Below, one piece after another: positions 13,109 to 27,739 of a stretch of 28,537 bases of DNA. The stretch is from positions 1 to 28,537 of IMG/VR virus record IMGVR_UViG_3300020347_000021; one strand, written 5' to 3'. A program made the translations under genes and the position numbers. The number at the start of each line of letters is the position of its first letter. Within the stretch, counting starts at the first letter, position 1. Below the pieces are notes generated by a model. That model had not been told where the DNA came from. It did no database searches and worked only from the letters and a program-made list of their open reading frames with translations. The stretch is from a virus.

Positions 13109-13837
13109 TTAGAAGAGTTTTAATTGTGCTTGTCCTATTCTTTGTTTTGCTATGTCAAAATACTTATCGTCTAACTCAATACCTATAAAATTTCTGTTTG
13201 TATTAACACAAGCTACACCAGTTGAACCGCTACCCATTGTAAAATCTAACACCGTTTCGTTTTCGTTAGTGTATGTTTTAATTAAGTATTCCATTAACTC
13301 AACTGGCTTTTGTGTTGGGTGTTGTTTCCTTTTTTGGTTGGCGTTGCTAAATTCAATAATAGAACTAGGGTAGTAGTCGTCATTAAAATTGTCAATAGGG
13401 TTCTTTAGTTGTCCGTATGTTTGAAAATCTTTAGAAGTTTGTATTTTTTTATTTCTGAATTTACCTTTGGTCATTTGTGGGTTGTACACATTTTTAGCAT
13501 TGAACACCATTACGTCCTCGTGACGTCTTAAAGGCATTCTTTTACAATTCAACATACCTACTTTCATTCTTTTATCCCAAACCCAATCATATTTGTAGTT
13601 TTTAATATTACTCATTCTTAAAGCGCTTGAAAACGGTTCACTTCCAAACAGTACTATTGCACCATTAGGTTTAATTATTCTGTTTAGTTGTTCCCACATT
13701 AAGTCAAAGTCTATAACGCTGTCCCATTTACAAGCAGTAGTACCGTATGGTGGGTCTGTTATTATTGCGTCTATTGAAGCGTCTGGTATTGACTTCATTA
13801 CCTCTAAGCATTCTCCTTTTATTAAATCTATTTTCAT
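13109..13837 (-). CDS. DNA methyltransferase, N6-adenine or N4-cytosine, beta class
   Basis: The 242-residue enzyme should transfer a methyl group from S-adenosylmethionine to an exocyclic amino group in DNA. The catalytic motif IV is ITDPPYGTT at residues 26-34. The AdoMet-binding motif I comes later, LDFTMGSGSTGVACV at about 197-211, and HPTQKPVELMEYLI (about 173-186) precedes it. Catalytic motif before binding motif defines the beta class (N6_N4_Mtase family). There is no restriction endonuclease next to it, so it is probably an orphan that protects phage DNA or marks it for packaging. It lies between large terminase and the tail chaperone. The target sequence cannot be read from the protein. 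Confidence 0.92.
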   Translation of the reverse strand: MKIDLIKGECLEVMKSIPDASIDAIITDPPYGTTACKWDSVIDFDLMWEQLNRIIKPNGAIVLFGSEPFSSALRMSNIKNYKYDWVWDKRMKVGMLNCKRMPLRRHEDVMVFNAKNVYNPQMTKGKFRNKKIQTSKDFQTYGQLKNPIDNFNDDYYPSSIIEFSNANQKRKQHPTQKPVELMEYLIKTYTNENETVLDFTMGSGSTGVACVNTNRNFIGIELDDKYFDIAKQRIGQAQLKLF

Positions 13838-15378: not shown

Positions 15379-15444
15379 TTAGAACAACCTTTGTTGTGCC
15401 TTGTGCTGCTTTAGTTCCATATTATCTTCGTTTGTTATTAGCAT
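15379..15444 (-). CDS. Possible 21-residue micro-ORF
   Basis: An ATG at 15444 overlaps the stop of the DnaA-like gene and opens a frame of 21 codons (MLITNEDNMELKQHKAQQRL plus F), ending at TAA 15379 just before an A-rich stretch. The overlap mode is the same as for accepted genes here, but a frame this short can arise by chance. It could encode a micro-protein or just be leader sequence. Confidence 0.3.
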   Translation of the reverse strand: MLITNEDNMELKQHKAQQRLF

Positions 15445-15959
15445 AGTAAAGAGCTTTTAATTCTCTTGTTTAGTATAGCTCCTTTTACTTCTGCTATTGT
15501 CTTTGGTTTGACTCTGTGCTTTAATGATTTGTTAAACGGGTCTAAGCGTGTTTCTTTAAACTCCGTTACTGTTTCTATATCCCAGCCGCTTAAGATGTCT
15601 ATAACGTCTTGTATTTCTTTTATAGTCTTAGTTGTTTCTGCTTTTTTAATCTCTTTCTTTATTTTGTCTTGGTCTGAATTAAAGAAAGGTTTAGAGAATA
15701 CTAAGTCTAGTTCTTGTATTATCTCGTCGTGTTTTCTTTTATCTTCTAAGCTTATTACATTAACGCTATTTACGTGATGTAGTATATTACAATGACTTTT
15801 TTTTATTGTAACCCCTACCTCTTTAAAAGTACTGCCAGATTCATAAGCAAGTTTACAAAACACTTTCTTTGCATATGTGTAATTCCTTTGCCTTGTTTTT
15901 AAGGTAATGTCTAAGTTAAACTTTTTATTAACTGCTTCTTTTATTATATCTAATTTCAT
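15438..15959 (-). CDS. DnaA domain IV-like DNA-binding protein
   Basis: The 173-residue basic protein has an N-terminal helix-turn-helix that resembles the DNA-binding domain IV of DnaA: RQRNYTYAKKVFCKLAYESG followed by STFKEVGVTIKKSHCNILHH at about residues 23-62. The latter lines up with the DnaA signature DHTTVLHA, here SHCNILHH. The rest is a charged helical region without recognised domain. There is no ATPase domain, so it is not an initiator on its own. It may bind a phage origin or promoter, or recruit host replication proteins. It is the last sizeable gene of the second early unit, just before the terminase genes. The family call is moderate confidence. Confidence 0.6.
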   Translation of the reverse strand: MKLDIIKEAVNKKFNLDITLKTRQRNYTYAKKVFCKLAYESGSTFKEVGVTIKKSHCNILHHVNSVNVISLEDKRKHDEIIQELDLVFSKPFFNSDQDKIKKEIKKAETTKTIKEIQDVIDILSGWDIETVTEFKETRLDPFNKSLKHRVKPKTIAEVKGAILNKRIKSSLLC

Positions 15960-16463: not shown

Positions 16464-17171
16464 TTAATCATTATTATAATGCTTTAGATATGGTTGCTCT
16501 TTCTTAGTGCATTTTTTTATCCAGCTTTTATCTAAAAACTTAATATATCTAAATTGTCTTAAATCGTGTTTTATTGCATTTTTTTTATTTGTTTGTAAAT
16601 ATCTGCAACCACCAACATTATTTTTGTAACGTTGGCTTTTTTTAGATACAGTCATACTTGTATTATGATACATTGTAGATTCAAGTTCCCAAAAACTGCT
16701 GGTGTGTTCTCCATAGAATCTAAAGCTACAAGCTTGATAAACAATACCTAAACCACCGCATCTTTCATCTGCAAAACTTTGTACCCATTTAATGGTTTTA
16801 AGCTTTCCCTTAATGTACTTTATTGAATAGCTTATAGCCATACTTTCACTATTTCTTTCAGCTTTATCATCTAACCACATTCTATTTAATTCTAAGTATT
16901 GGTTCATTTCAGTGCCTTTAACTACGCTTCCACAACTTGCTGGGTTCATTGCATATCCATACTGTAGGACACCTAAAAACTCTTGATTTATAAAAACACC
17001 TAAATTAATATAAGTTCCATTATATACTTTTTTAGAATAATGGTTTTTTATAATTGTTTCTTTTGCTAAATCCTTATCAATCTCTTTTACTTGAAAATTA
17101 TTAGTTCCATAGCCTATTACATCTTTATGCCCAAACATTGGTATCTGGTCGCTATAAATATATCCTTTCAT
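16464..17171 (-). CDS. Mom-like DNA modification protein
   Basis: The 235-residue protein matches the Mom family (Mu Mom, 231 residues, converts adenine to N6-carbamoylmethyl adenine and protects phage DNA from restriction). Visible blocks are IIKNHYSKKVYNG (41-53), INLGVFINQEFLGVLQYGYA (55-74), YLELNRMWL (92-100), AERNSESMAISYSIKYI (104-120) and VQSFADERCGGLGIVYQACS (130-149). These follow the GNAT-like order of Mom homologues (HYS, ELNR, RNSES, SFAD). The frame overlaps the ParB-like gene by ATGA, so the two are made together. No Com-like zinc finger regulator lies next to it, though a small CxxC protein lies at 18766-18888. The exact modification cannot be read from sequence. Confidence 0.85.
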   Translation of the reverse strand: MKGYIYSDQIPMFGHKDVIGYGTNNFQVKEIDKDLAKETIIKNHYSKKVYNGTYINLGVFINQEFLGVLQYGYAMNPASCGSVVKGTEMNQYLELNRMWLDDKAERNSESMAISYSIKYIKGKLKTIKWVQSFADERCGGLGIVYQACSFRFYGEHTSSFWELESTMYHNTSMTVSKKSQRYKNNVGGCRYLQTNKKNAIKHDLRQFRYIKFLDKSWIKKCTKKEQPYLKHYNND

Positions 17172-17974
17172 ATAGTTGTTAAGTAAGCGTTAAAACTTTT
17201 ATCTATTGCATCTTTTGTAAAAGAGCAGTTATCCATAGAGTTATAGTGATAAAAAGTAAAATCAATTAGTAGGTTTAATATTTCTTTATTTGACATTGAT
17301 AAAATCTTTTCGCTTCTTTTAATTTTTTTAAATACTGGAATAATACTACCTCCGTTTAATTTCATAGACCTTCCATTTTTATTTAAATGTTTTATAAGTC
17401 TTCCGTTATATAAATAGTTTTGCCCTAAATACTCAACAATTTCTAAAAGTCTATTATGGTTTTTAGGTAGTTTACAATTACCTTTTTTAACATTATTTGT
17501 AATGCCTAAAAATATGGAAATTAAAGCGGGAATAGTAAAAAGTTTTCCATAAACACCCTCCGCTTCCTTTAAGCTGTTAGGACTTTTCATAACCTCTAAT
17601 AAAAACCTTTTATAATCTTTATTACCGCTACCAGCATAACTAACAATGTAATCAATAACTTTTAAAGATTTACCTCTTGTGTTAAAAGATATAAATGTTT
17701 CTCTTGCTTCTTCATTGTCTTTAACTTGTTTTTCTAAAACATTAATTTTTTTATGTTTAAGGTAATCAAAAACAGCACTATATAAATGATTTCCGTCAGT
17801 TAATATTTTAGTTCCGTCTTTAGTTATACATATAAGCACGTCCCTAAGCTGTCCGTTTTCAGATACTGCTTCCGAAAGGTCTTTAACATTCTTTTCATTT
17901 CTCCATCTTTGCCAAGTTGGAATAATTACATTTTTAAAATCTTTTTTCGTGTAATTTGTTCTTTTTGTTTTCAT
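17168..17974 (-). CDS. ParB-superfamily (ParB/DGQHR/DUF262-like) protein coupled to Mom
   Basis: The 268-residue basic protein has a ParB-type fold at its N-terminus: QRWRNEKNVKDLSEAVSENG (22-41), then GTKILTDGNHLYSAVFDYLK (54-73), where DGNH stands in for the usual DGxHR. Next is ARETFISFNTRGKSLKVIDY (90-109), which resembles the FxxxNTxGxxL element of DGQHR and DUF262 proteins. The remaining 150 residues are helical and unassigned. ParB-superfamily domains repeatedly accompany DNA base-modification genes and can bind DNA, hydrolyse NTP or cut DNA. Translational coupling with the Mom-like gene suggests a partner in the same reaction or its targeting. The Arg after DGxH is replaced by Leu, which may alter activity. 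Confidence 0.7.
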   Translation of the reverse strand: MKTKRTNYTKKDFKNVIIPTWQRWRNEKNVKDLSEAVSENGQLRDVLICITKDGTKILTDGNHLYSAVFDYLKHKKINVLEKQVKDNEEARETFISFNTRGKSLKVIDYIVSYAGSGNKDYKRFLLEVMKSPNSLKEAEGVYGKLFTIPALISIFLGITNNVKKGNCKLPKNHNRLLEIVEYLGQNYLYNGRLIKHLNKNGRSMKLNGGSIIPVFKKIKRSEKILSMSNKEILNLLIDFTFYHYNSMDNCSFTKDAIDKSFNAYLTTI

Positions 17975-17999: not shown

Positions 18000-18779
18000 T
18001 TATAATTCCCCAGTTAAGCAATAGTTATCTAAGTCAGCACCCTCTATAAAGAATTTATTGTATAAGTCAAGTGCTTTTTCTACTTTTTGTTCGCCTCTGT
18101 AATAAAATTCTTCTGAGCAGTTAAATATACCAATGTCAAGTGAGCCTTTGTCTAATACCAAGAACTGAAAGTCTTTGTATTCTTTATTGAATAGGTTGCA
18201 ATATAAATAGCATTGCACATCGTAACCATATTTATTAGCACTCCAGCTAAAGTCCTTGATGTTTGTTGTAGTCTTAATGTCGCAAATTCTATTCTCCCCT
18301 AACACATCAGCCTTGCCTCTGAATGGCATACCTAAGACGTTATCTATTGCTGGTATCTCAAACTCTGCTTTAGTGATTAGTTCTTTTGCGTGTTCGTTGC
18401 GATAGAACGCATCTACAAGCCTTTCTGTTTCGCTTCTTTCCTTAGCGGTGTAAACAGTTCCAAACTCTGCCACAGCTTCCTTAAACTTCTTTGTGTTTCT
18501 GCTCTGTACCTCTACAAACTTTTGTTCTGAAAATTTTTGAGGCTCAAGGATTGCCCAGTGAAACAATGCACCAGCCCTTAAAGCTGCGCTATCCCCACTG
18601 CCATACTTCAAGCTAAAGCTATAAGTTTTTGGGCTTGACAGAAGCTGTTTAAGGCTGCTACTACTAAGAGCTAACTTGTTTAGTTCTCCATAGTAAAAAG
18701 TGTCATCTTCCATACGCTTAAGCAGTTCTGCTCTATCGTAATGCTTTCCGTCTAATAGTTTTATTTTATTCTGTATCAT
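18000..18779 (-). CDS. RecB/RecE-like PD-(D/E)XK exonuclease
   Basis: The 259-residue protein fits the phage RecE/Cas4-like exonuclease family (PDDEXK, DUF3799-like). It shows SSSSLKQLLSSPKTYSFSLK near residue 38, AALRAGALFHWAILEPQKF with the conserved His, FRGKADVLG and ICDIKTTT carrying the catalytic D...DxK, and YDVQCYLYC as the trailing Q-x-x-x-Y motif. It should degrade one strand of linear double-stranded DNA to feed annealing recombination together with the annealing protein at 22564 and the SSB-like protein at 22250. A longer frame exists from ATG 18830, but a zinc-ribbon gene occupies that stretch, so I take ATG 18779, which overlaps that gene by 14 bases. Confidence 0.85.
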   Translation of the reverse strand: MIQNKIKLLDGKHYDRAELLKRMEDDTFYYGELNKLALSSSSLKQLLSSPKTYSFSLKYGSGDSAALRAGALFHWAILEPQKFSEQKFVEVQSRNTKKFKEAVAEFGTVYTAKERSETERLVDAFYRNEHAKELITKAEFEIPAIDNVLGMPFRGKADVLGENRICDIKTTTNIKDFSWSANKYGYDVQCYLYCNLFNKEYKDFQFLVLDKGSLDIGIFNCSEEFYYRGEQKVEKALDLYNKFFIEGADLDNYCLTGEL

Positions 18780-18888
18780 AGTTGTAGCAATTTTTAGAGC
18801 AGTAAGTATCTCCGTTAGTTTCCGTTCCACAAGTTCTACATTCCGTTATCTCATCTGGTTTATCTATGTGGTAGTCTAAGTAATTCAT
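18766..18888 (-). CDS. 40-residue zinc-ribbon-like protein
   Basis: ATG 18888 overlaps the stop of the upstream coiled-coil gene as ATGA, and TAA 18766 lies inside the start of the exonuclease gene. The product begins MNYLDYHIDKPDEI and continues TECRTCGTETNGDTYCSKNC, giving C-x-x-C...C-x-x-x-C, a classic zinc knuckle with treble-clef-like spacing. Such a minimal finger could bind nucleic acid or a partner protein. Mu Mom is regulated by Com, a small zinc-finger protein, but this protein is not adjacent to the Mom-like gene, so a Com-like role is speculation. Confidence 0.75.
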   Translation of the reverse strand: MNYLDYHIDKPDEITECRTCGTETNGDTYCSKNCYNYDTE

Positions 18889-25398: not shown

Positions 25399-26616
25399 TT
25401 ATATTGTTGTTAAACAAGTTAATTCTTCGTCTGTTAATGCTTCTTTAAATACTGCAACGCATTTAGTTTTTCCGTGTAAATAAGCGCTGCCATTACTATC
25501 AAAATCTAATTGACTTAAAGTACCTATCGGAAATGTAACCCCACTTGTGTCTGTGAAAACTTCAACACCATTAATCCAAAGAGCGAAATCATTCTCTTTG
25601 TACTTAAAGGCTATTTTATTAAAGCCAAGTATGTCGTATGAAGTGCTACCTTGAAAAACTTGAGTAACATTCCCCGCTTTTACTAAAGCTCTAATCTCAT
25701 TACTTGAAGTCCAATATCCAATAAAAATTCTGTTTGAATTTGTACCATCTGAAAGCTGTATAACTCTAGTACTACCATCATCAGTCAAAGCCGCTATCTC
25801 TGCATATAGCACACCCTCTGTTGAGTTTATTAAATCTGAACTACCAGCGTTATTTAGTGTTTCTCCTAAACGAGTAAATGTGCTTCCGCTTGTTGGAATG
25901 TATGAAGTAGCGTATGGTAGTTGTTCTAGTTGTGCGCCAAATACATACATAGATTTTCCGTCTTCTAAAATATGTCTGATTTGTGAAGATGATCCAGTTG
26001 CGTTAGTGTATTCAAAAGTCATTTCTACCCTATACCATCCATTACCATAGTTTAATGAGTTTCCAGTTGCGTTATTCTCTACTGTAAACGTGTCTGTATC
26101 AATATTATAAGTTACACTTGATTGTGGACTGTTACTTACATTTTTAATTATAACGGTGCTTGATGTACCTTTTTTTACAAACAATGAATGAGTGTATGTT
26201 TGACCATTAGTTGAACTTAAATTACCTGTTCCAAACCAGCCACTAGTGCCAGTATTCCTAGAAAATAAAGAGGCATTTGTTTCTCCATCTGGGGATGATT
26301 GATTATCTACTCTAGTTGTATTGTTTGTATTCCCACTTCCACCAAAAACCCATTGACTTGCATTACCAGAATAAATTGCTGCATTTGTACTCTGCGGCTC
26401 TAATAATATATGTCCTACTCCGTCAGTATAATCTATTCTAGATAATCCACTTGCTACGTCTTCTATAAGACCATTTGAAGCAACTCTTGTAGCACTTGAG
26501 TTTCTTGTGAAGTCGAAATCACCTACACTCGTATTTGGTTTAACGCTTAATAATTTACCATCATTGTACGCTGTTGGAGTAGTTAATATACTCGCTTTTT
26601 CTAATAAATTACTCAT
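25399..26616 (-). CDS. Fibre-like receptor-binding candidate, copy 2 (LamG/concanavalin-like C-terminus)
   Basis: The 405-residue beta-rich, Asn/Ser/Thr-rich protein begins MSNLLEKASILTTPTAYNDG. Its first half shares a pattern with the 309-residue protein upstream: DFTRNSSATRVASNGLIEDV (34-53) against DFTINRGTVSTRVRKDGLIE, ILLEPQSTNAAIY, SPDGETNASLFSRN, and SYIPTSGSTFTR. The second half (VLYAEIAALTDDGSTRVIQL, KENDFALWINGVEVF, FKEALTDEELTCL) looks like a LamG-type concanavalin-fold domain, typical of host-surface polysaccharide binding. It is probably part of the tail fibre or tip. Its start overlaps the small WW-protein stop by one base. Confidence 0.7.
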   Translation of the reverse strand: MSNLLEKASILTTPTAYNDGKLLSVKPNTSVGDFDFTRNSSATRVASNGLIEDVASGLSRIDYTDGVGHILLEPQSTNAAIYSGNASQWVFGGSGNTNNTTRVDNQSSPDGETNASLFSRNTGTSGWFGTGNLSSTNGQTYTHSLFVKKGTSSTVIIKNVSNSPQSSVTYNIDTDTFTVENNATGNSLNYGNGWYRVEMTFEYTNATGSSSQIRHILEDGKSMYVFGAQLEQLPYATSYIPTSGSTFTRLGETLNNAGSSDLINSTEGVLYAEIAALTDDGSTRVIQLSDGTNSNRIFIGYWTSSNEIRALVKAGNVTQVFQGSTSYDILGFNKIAFKYKENDFALWINGVEVFTDTSGVTFPIGTLSQLDFDSNGSAYLHGKTKCVAVFKEALTDEELTCLTTI

Positions 26617-26810
26617 TATTCACAGTTTTCTAAAGCGGTTAATATTGTAGTCGTTCCAGTTGCATTCTCGTAATACGTCGCTCTGGCTTGTAAAGTCGTT
26701 AAAAGGTTAGGTACTGCACTAGTAACAGATAAGTCATAATAAATACCTCCCCATCCGTCTTGTACTGGGTTACCCCACCACGTTGTTTTATATATTTCTC
26801 CGTATGCCAT
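26616..26810 (-). CDS. 64-residue WWxNPxxDGW protein, copy 2
   Basis: A small protein beginning MAYGEIYKTTWWGNPVQDGW then GGIYYDLSVTS, followed by a helical Thr/Ala-rich tail. The opening matches MSYGSIYESKWWVNPQEDGW of the 39-residue protein at 27732. Each copy precedes a fibre-like gene, with one-base overlaps here. The tryptophan-rich head looks like a short binding module, perhaps a joint between fibre and tail. No known family. Confidence 0.75.
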   Translation of the reverse strand: MAYGEIYKTTWWGNPVQDGWGGIYYDLSVTSAVPNLLTTLQARATYYENATGTTTILTALENCE

Positions 26811-27739
26811 TATTCCATTATTATTTTTTTAATCAATCCGTTGCTTACTGTATATGTAGATGGTATCGTGGTGATTATGTTAGTTGTATCGTCTGCGAAA
26901 GTTTCTACTATTTGTGTTACCCCACTTGGTGTTGTTACACTACAAACACTAGCTTCTCTTGTTACTGCTCCACTTGTTGTTTTTATATAGCTTGATACAG
27001 AGTTCCCCTCCTCAACTTGTATTCCCCATACATAAGTAAATGCAGTTGTAGAGGTATCTGTACTATCTATAAAACCACTAGTAGCTCTTGGACTAAAATA
27101 AGTTGTTACTGTTGCAGCAGTATCTGTATTAAATGTAACAGATAATCTATGCCAACCATTAACATAATTTTCTACACTTGAATTAACTACTGTATAATTA
27201 CTACCATCAACACTTATTGTAAGTGTATTAGTGCTAAATTGGTAAATAGCTTCGCCTCTATTTGGATAGCTGCCTTGTGAACGAAAAGCAAAAAAATCTC
27301 CCTCTCCTTGTTTAATAAAAACAGACGTTGTTATATCTATTTGAGAAGATGATGACTTAGTCGAGGAATCACTAATATAATTCGCACTTGTAGAAGTTCT
27401 AATTAATTTATCAGCATTTGATTCGCCAGTTGGCGATATTACTTGATTAGCTGTAACGGTTGTAGAACTTTTTGCCCAAGCTGCATTGTCTATTTCCTCT
27501 GACCTAATTTGCCTATTAGTTCTTAATGGCTCTATATTTAAACTTGGACAATCACTGTTTAACCAATCTAAACAAGGAACATCAACCGAAACGGTTTCTA
27601 TAAGTCCATCTTTTCTAACTCTTGTGCTTACGGTACCTCTATTTATAGTAAAATCCCCACTCCCATTGCTAGGAAGTATTGAGTAAAGACTAGAAGCTTT
27701 GTAGCCACTAGGTATTAATGCTAGTTTTGGATTACTCAT
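26810..27739 (-). CDS. Fibre-like receptor-binding candidate, copy 1
   Basis: The 309-residue beta-rich protein begins MSNPKLALIPSGYKASSLYS and carries blocks shared with the 405-residue protein: DFTINRGTVSTRVRKDGLIE, LNIEPLRTNRQIRSEE, SPTGESNADKLIRTS and SYIKTTSGAVTREASV. It also has FNTDTAATVTTYFSPRA. It lacks the extra C-terminal concanavalin-like domain and instead ends FADDTTNIITTIPSTYTVSN plus a short tail. It is probably a tail fibre or receptor-binding subunit, with the repeated block as a structural or carbohydrate-binding module. The last base of its stop (TAATG) is the first base of the next gene. Confidence 0.7.
   Translation of the reverse strand: MSNPKLALIPSGYKASSLYSILPSNGSGDFTINRGTVSTRVRKDGLIETVSVDVPCLDWLNSDCPSLNIEPLRTNRQIRSEEIDNAAWAKSSTTVTANQVISPTGESNADKLIRTSTSANYISDSSTKSSSSQIDITTSVFIKQGEGDFFAFRSQGSYPNRGEAIYQFSTNTLTISVDGSNYTVVNSSVENYVNGWHRLSVTFNTDTAATVTTYFSPRATSGFIDSTDTSTTAFTYVWGIQVEEGNSVSSYIKTTSGAVTREASVCSVTTPSGVTQIVETFADDTTNIITTIPSTYTVSNGLIKKIIME

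Follow-up and report, generated by a model that had tools for sequence, protein, structure and literature searches.

A ParB-fold gene overlapping mom in a metagenomic phage may encode a companion of interchangeable DNA-modification enzymes

Mom modifies adenine and protects the DNA of phage Mu. In a viral DNA fragment of 28,537 nucleotides (IMG/VR record IMGVR_UViG_3300020347_000021; this whole stretch is called the window below), a Mom-like gene overlaps the end of a gene for a ParB-like protein, which raises the question of what a ParB-like protein does beside a base-modifying enzyme. A sequence-only reading of the window had described the two as translationally fused and had suggested that the partner could supply targeting, a nucleotide-dependent step or demodification. 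Here, we report homology searches, a structure model and gene-neighbourhood surveys of viral contigs that bear on this question. The answer that we favour, tentatively and at just under an even chance, is that the ParB-like protein is a DNA-level accessory of whichever modification enzyme is encoded directly behind it, which in the window is Mom.

Table 1. Features of the locus, with positions counted from the first nucleotide of the window.
Feature	Position	Strand	Length or site	Evidence and remarks
Source record				IMG/VR virus record, 28.5-kb window; metagenomic fragment
ParB/Srx-fold companion gene	17168..17974	-	268 aa	ORF
mom	16464..17171	-	235 aa	PF25680, phrog_1384 and 8bv8 matches
ATGA overlap (ParB-like stop/mom start)	17168..17171	-		Two ORFs
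DGNHL motif	17783..17797	-	Residues 60-64	P-motif GxxR position, Arg to Leu; alignments
Beta-class N6/N4 DNA methyltransferase	13109..13837	-		PF01555 4.5e-34; outside the overlapping pair, beyond terminase
DnaA C-terminal-like protein (family F1)	15438..15959	-		Bac_DnaA_C 8.3e-5, below cut-off; syntenic neighbour
Exonuclease, DUF3799/exonuclease VIII type (family F3)	18000..18830	-		PF12684 3.1e-18; phrog_412 1.3e-31; upstream syntenic neighbour

Read along the minus strand, the gene order was exonuclease, ParB-like gene, mom, DUF3310 protein, DnaA C-terminal-like protein, terminase genes and methyltransferase (Table 1), and the DnaA C-terminal-like gene was a neighbour in most relatives. 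The ATGA overlap was confirmed. What had been called a translational fusion is two overlapping genes, ParB first; as the frames are separate and no ParB domain was found in any long Mom ORF sampled, a ParB-Mom gene fusion was rejected. The orphan beta-class methyltransferase that had been grouped with the pair is indeed present, with DPPY preceding a motif-I-like DFTMGSGSTG, but it lies ~2.6 kb downstream of the overlapping genes and past the terminase genes. Its DNA was 81% identical to that of the methyltransferase of Flavobacterium phage snusmum6, and the window terminase resembled that of a Nonlabens phage, likenesses from which the host of the phage is probably a marine flavobacterium. 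Two nearby proteins (25399–26616 and 26810–27739, both on the minus strand) each carried a GTA head spike fiber domain (NF048003).

The Mom-like gene proved to be a genuine mom, as had been read from its HYS, ELNR, RNSES and SFAD blocks, all of which are present. Its product matched Pfam PF25680 (E = 4.3e-66; 222.9 bits against a cut-off of 27.1; profile positions 1–200 of 202), phrog_1384 (1.9e-54) and, among solved structures, the Mu Mom chain 8bv8 (1.7e-55), and was 44% identical to Mu Mom with homology over the full length. HYS, ELNR and FAD were invariant across 22 diverse Moms (H44, Y45, S46, E94–R97, E109 and F133–D135); the 8bv8 chain has Ala at S110, where both Mu Mom and the window Mom have Ser. 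Judged by these alignments, the window Mom is a confident new member of the known Mom family. By homology to Mu, it would put a bulky carbamoylmethyl group on adenine N6 and thereby block host restriction enzymes, and the earlier expectation that it should shield phage DNA is supported. Among the contigs surveyed, second, diverged Mom paralogues were seen in L005 (4832–5470; PF25680 7e-32), where the gene follows the DnaA-like one and takes the slot that a methyltransferase has in relatives, and in L061 (1453–2133), where two mom genes stand in tandem. In Enterococcus phage LoneStar and relatives (L139, 2968–3800), mom overlaps a thioredoxin/glutaredoxin-like gene by 4 nt, and by this arrangement the encoded protein is possibly another Mom partner.

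The ParB-like protein comprises a ParB fold (approximately residues 1–105) and a helical C-terminal domain (residues 106–268). Although its recognition by library models was weak (phrog_12305 ParB-like, 3.3e-8), its family profile matched the solved ParB 4umk (1.1e-6) and sulfiredoxin (4.4e-4), and an AlphaFold2 model built from 27 sequences (pLDDT 91.8) matched the ParB-CDP structure 6sdk with a Z of 11.8 and an rmsd of 2.5 over 96 residues. By its predicted fold, the protein is a member of the ParB/Srx superfamily; this and its QR, DGNHL and FxxFN motifs fit the earlier description of a partner from the ParB/DGQHR superfamily whose motif is changed to DGNHL. The helical domain gave at best middling fold matches (helices of ClpB, ORC and ATP synthase; Z 5–6.6) that permit no safe assignment, and a family search of this half identified no DNA-binding domain. 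The gene is under purifying selection, since its dN/dS was ~0.07 to 0.27.

Membership of three known groups was considered. A canonical ParB of the ParABS type was rejected, as no parA-like gene was found among the window proteins scanned, the record being incomplete, and the ParA-binding motif (L/F/I)G(K/R)G(L/F/I) is missing from the sequence. GmrSD (DUF262) membership was also rejected, with GmrSD_N scoring 20.1 bits against a cut-off of 33.2 and no HNH/DUF1524 half found in the window protein scan, and no DndB family model matched the protein. The Arg of the GxxR P-motif, which is needed for NTP binding in the ParB/Srx fold (PMC12704722), was absent from the whole window clade, where the motif reads GNHL, GAHL or GKHL (DGNHL/DGAHL/DGKHL), whereas distant ParB relatives retain it (EGQHR/EGHHR/DGYQR/EGQNR). 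Its loss in a branch that pairs with Mom only suggests weakened or absent NTP binding in the DGxHL branch, and the nucleotide-dependent step that had been proposed for the partner is doubtful in the window clade, every member of which has Leu at this position.

To see whether the pairing is real, viral contigs were scanned with a ParB-family profile and no Mom query, which gave 51 loci. mom was adjacent in 49 of these (after the ParB gene in 46 and before it in 3), and in the remaining two the ParB gene lay within ~50 nt of a contig end. Many contigs were near-duplicates; once these were set aside, 38 distinct pairs bearing DGxHL were left. An overlap of -4 or -1 nt was the rule among relatives, and the pair stayed together amid no fewer than five different sets of flanking genes. 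Conversely, a profile search found the ParB family in 0 of 30 Mom-only contigs and in 15/15 positive controls; ParB family profile A5 was used here in place of PF02195, which gave no match at E 0.01 even in companion-bearing contigs. That Pfam model lacks the sensitivity for this branch, and its absence was not counted. Chance pairing was rejected on the basis of the Mom adjacency and of a control against other genes (below), and the co-occurrence survey, fixed beforehand as the test of the sequence-only reading, thus gave a non-random distribution. So far the ParB family is metagenomic only, with no member found in cellular genomes or isolated-phage records. In Psychrobacter phage Y8A, a different ParB overlaps a different mom by 8 nt, independently. 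The Y8A ParB was matched by phrog_498 (1.9e-53), which also matched distant partners; this class is joined to methyltransferases too, and in some phage proteins a ParB-type N-terminus and a methyltransferase are fused in one chain.

Distant ParB relatives, used as queries, yielded 80 loci. The gene that follows, in many cases with an overlap of 1–20 nt, was mom or a gene for a beta-class N6/N4 or C5-type methyltransferase, as identified by Pfam (PF25680, PF01555 and PF00145). A modification enzyme was adjacent in 65 of 95 non-identical, non-edge ParB loci (Mom 39, C5 15, beta 11), and the approximately one-third of loci that had none were all distant ones, where the partner side was visible. 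As a control by gene family, an enzyme was adjacent in 64 of 97 cases for ParB and in 25 of 749 for all other genes of these loci together, giving an odds ratio of 56 that is descriptive, as rows were not independent and some loci had been fetched by Mom searches. Adjacency was 2/51 for the exonuclease, 18/74 for the DnaA-like gene, which is conserved in this phage group and often has a modification enzyme straight behind it, and 0 for most other families. On a ParB tree of 63 rows (quick method, long branches), the partner type changed at least 17 times; the Mom label changed 8 times, with at least 7 of these changes forced by well-supported (starred) branches. Within the DGxHL branch (21 rows, starred support of 98), Mom was the sole partner wherever a partner was visible. 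The gene after ParB in L334, L345, L361 and their relatives encodes a short (212–218 aa) C5-methyltransferase-like protein that matches only the N-terminal quarter of PF00145, and its activity is uncertain.

Compared to the exonuclease, with which ParB distances were well correlated (Mantel r 0.72, n = 16), Mom showed weak co-inheritance with ParB (r 0.19, n = 38), which indicates that Mom alleles have been exchanged while the ParB gene stayed. Moms 59–92% identical to that of the window were paired with ParBs 85–95% identical to its own, and near-identical Moms occurred with ParBs ~25% identical, mismatches by which inheritance of the pair as one fixed block was rejected. Three natural contig pairs (L300/L301, L294/L295 and L303/L305) record an exact gain or loss of mom, each time at the stop codon of the ParB gene. 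Between L303 and L305, DNA identity in the ParB gene dropped sharply at mid-gene, from ~97% in the N-terminal half to ~62% in the C-terminal half; this one event is suggestive of an exchanged block made up of the ParB C-terminal domain and mom.

The reading of the ParB-like protein as a DNA-level companion is supported by the adjacency in 49 of 51 loci, in both gene orders and with no counter-example where both sides were visible, as well as by the adjacency in 65 of 95 loci of the wider set, the repeated partner swaps, the exact gains or losses of mom, the persistence of the pair across flanking contexts, the absence of the ParB family from Mom-only contigs and the ParB-methyltransferase fusions. 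A helper that fits three chemistries probably has no part in any of them, and DNA or gene expression is the likelier route. Comparison of the loci indicates that the protein is probably an enzyme-agnostic accessory (in loading, targeting or dosage) and not part of Mom chemistry. Mechanistically, the overlapping genes would give coupled, balanced synthesis of the ParB-like protein and the enzyme, and the ParB-fold protein may act on phage DNA, where it would load, target or gate the enzyme; action on DNA is preferred because the partner chemistries differ. Where Mom is the sole partner, as in the window clade, the companion probably works without an NTP switch, given the loss of the nucleotide-binding Arg. 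A broader proposal, that the ParB-fold family loads or gates any plugged-in base-modifying enzyme and that one branch became specialised for Mom and gave up its nucleotide switch, is conceivable but doubtful. Against a DNA-level companion, Mom and methyltransferases clearly work without the ParB-like protein (in Mu and, presumably, in the Mom-only contigs), about one-third of ParB loci lack an adjacent modification enzyme, and the region is a hotspot in which the DnaA-like gene also precedes modification enzymes. The weak co-inheritance of ParB and Mom is also hard to square with a complex in which the two proteins bind tightly and specifically.

Alternatively, the ParB-like gene could control expression, setting how much of the modification enzyme is made, or when, as Com or DndB do, which we consider unlikely. 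It occupies the position of com, just upstream of mom and overlapping it; Com activates mom translation in Mu (PMC6483171), and DndB, a ParB-superfamily protein with the ParB fold, represses the dnd modification operon to which it belongs (PMC12704722). The overlap of ParB and mom is conserved, and their loose allele pairing suits regulation better than a tight complex. However, RNA structure around the mom start was unremarkable (z -0.75), with no sign of the inhibitory mRNA hairpin found there in Mu; mom precedes the ParB gene in three loci, so the overlap is not essential; and the family search of the C-terminal half, with no DNA-binding domain, also speaks against a regulator. Promoter and terminator signals at the locus were no more frequent than in shuffles.

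It is also possible, but in our judgement improbable, that the association is one of position only, with a resident backbone ParB-like gene in a variable recombination-terminase region and mobile modification genes landing behind it, at a site that tolerates insertions. Such a history would account for ParB divergence that tracks the backbone exonuclease while Mom alleles are exchanged, for mom gains and losses precise to the ParB 3' end, and for distant ParBs that sit in the same slot without a modification enzyme. It is harder to reconcile with the rarity of enzymes behind most other genes of the region, the exonuclease included, with the survival of the pair through changes of neighbours and reversal of gene order, with Mom-only contigs that have no ParB gene, and with the existence of ParB-methyltransferase fusions. 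Finally, a part in chemistry, demodification or nuclease action (an NTP-dependent Mom step, removal of the mark, or GmrSD-like cutting of unmodified DNA) is very improbable, in spite of the weak GmrSD_N similarity and of the kinases and NTPases within the ParB fold, as the same ParB family pairs with SAM-dependent N6/N4 and C5 methyltransferases, the P-motif Arg is lost in the window clade, the HNH/DUF1524 half was not found, and Mom acts unaided in Mu, as it presumably does in Mom-only contigs. The methyltransferase pairings and the unaided action of Mom make a step specific to Mom chemistry unlikely, and likewise the demodification put forward earlier.

If the DNA-level companion reading is true, phages would possess a plug-in modification cassette in which the ParB-fold protein is constant and the chemistry is swapped, presumably outpacing host restriction. 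It would also give a testable role to the many ParB-like genes that are orphans in phage genomes and frequently carry the annotation 'partition protein' or 'nuclease', and would unite ParB-methyltransferase fusions, the ParBs of thymidine hypermodification and Mom under one idea. The three mom-present/mom-absent pairs and the branch with Leu in place of Arg would constitute a natural experiment on the ParB NTP switch in DNA modification. In the open-access literature searched, no account was found of the ParB-Mom pair as a functional unit, nor of a ParB gene with a swapped modification partner; the association of the ParB fold with modification enzymes is itself already known from fusions, DndB and thymidine-hypermodification clusters (PMC11955845).

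Among known systems, Mu Mom shares the conserved HYS, ELNR, RNSES and FAD blocks, but the window mom lies near exonuclease and terminase genes rather than terminally in a Mu-like genome. The com-mom operon of Mu is similarly a small operon in which the gene preceding mom overlaps it, in that case by 50 nt; Com, however, is a zinc-finger RNA-binding protein, unlike the ParB fold of the upstream gene here. No Com zinc-ribbon gene overlaps mom in the window, where that place is taken by the ParB-like gene, and a sample of 97 genes neighbouring mom on its upstream side included Com just 3 times. The DGQHR/DndB branch, for which QR, DGQHR and FxxxN are the listed motifs (PMC4619093), and GmrS (DUF262) resemble the window protein in the QR pair, the DGxH core and the FxxxN motif; the window protein has DGNHL for DGQHR and neither a nuclease half nor dnd genes. 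A ParB-like gene adjoins base-hypermodification genes in thymidine-hypermodification clusters as well, such as that of phage Tonitrus (PMC11955845), a likeness drawn from gene neighbourhood, with thymidine pathway enzymes there and Mom here. ParB-CTPase/sulfiredoxin proteins, including the reported phage ParB-methyltransferase fusions (PMC12704722; phrog_498), share both the N-terminal fold and the association with a DNA-modification enzyme, whereas the window ParB is a separate gene, has Mom as its partner and carries Leu for the GxxR Arg.
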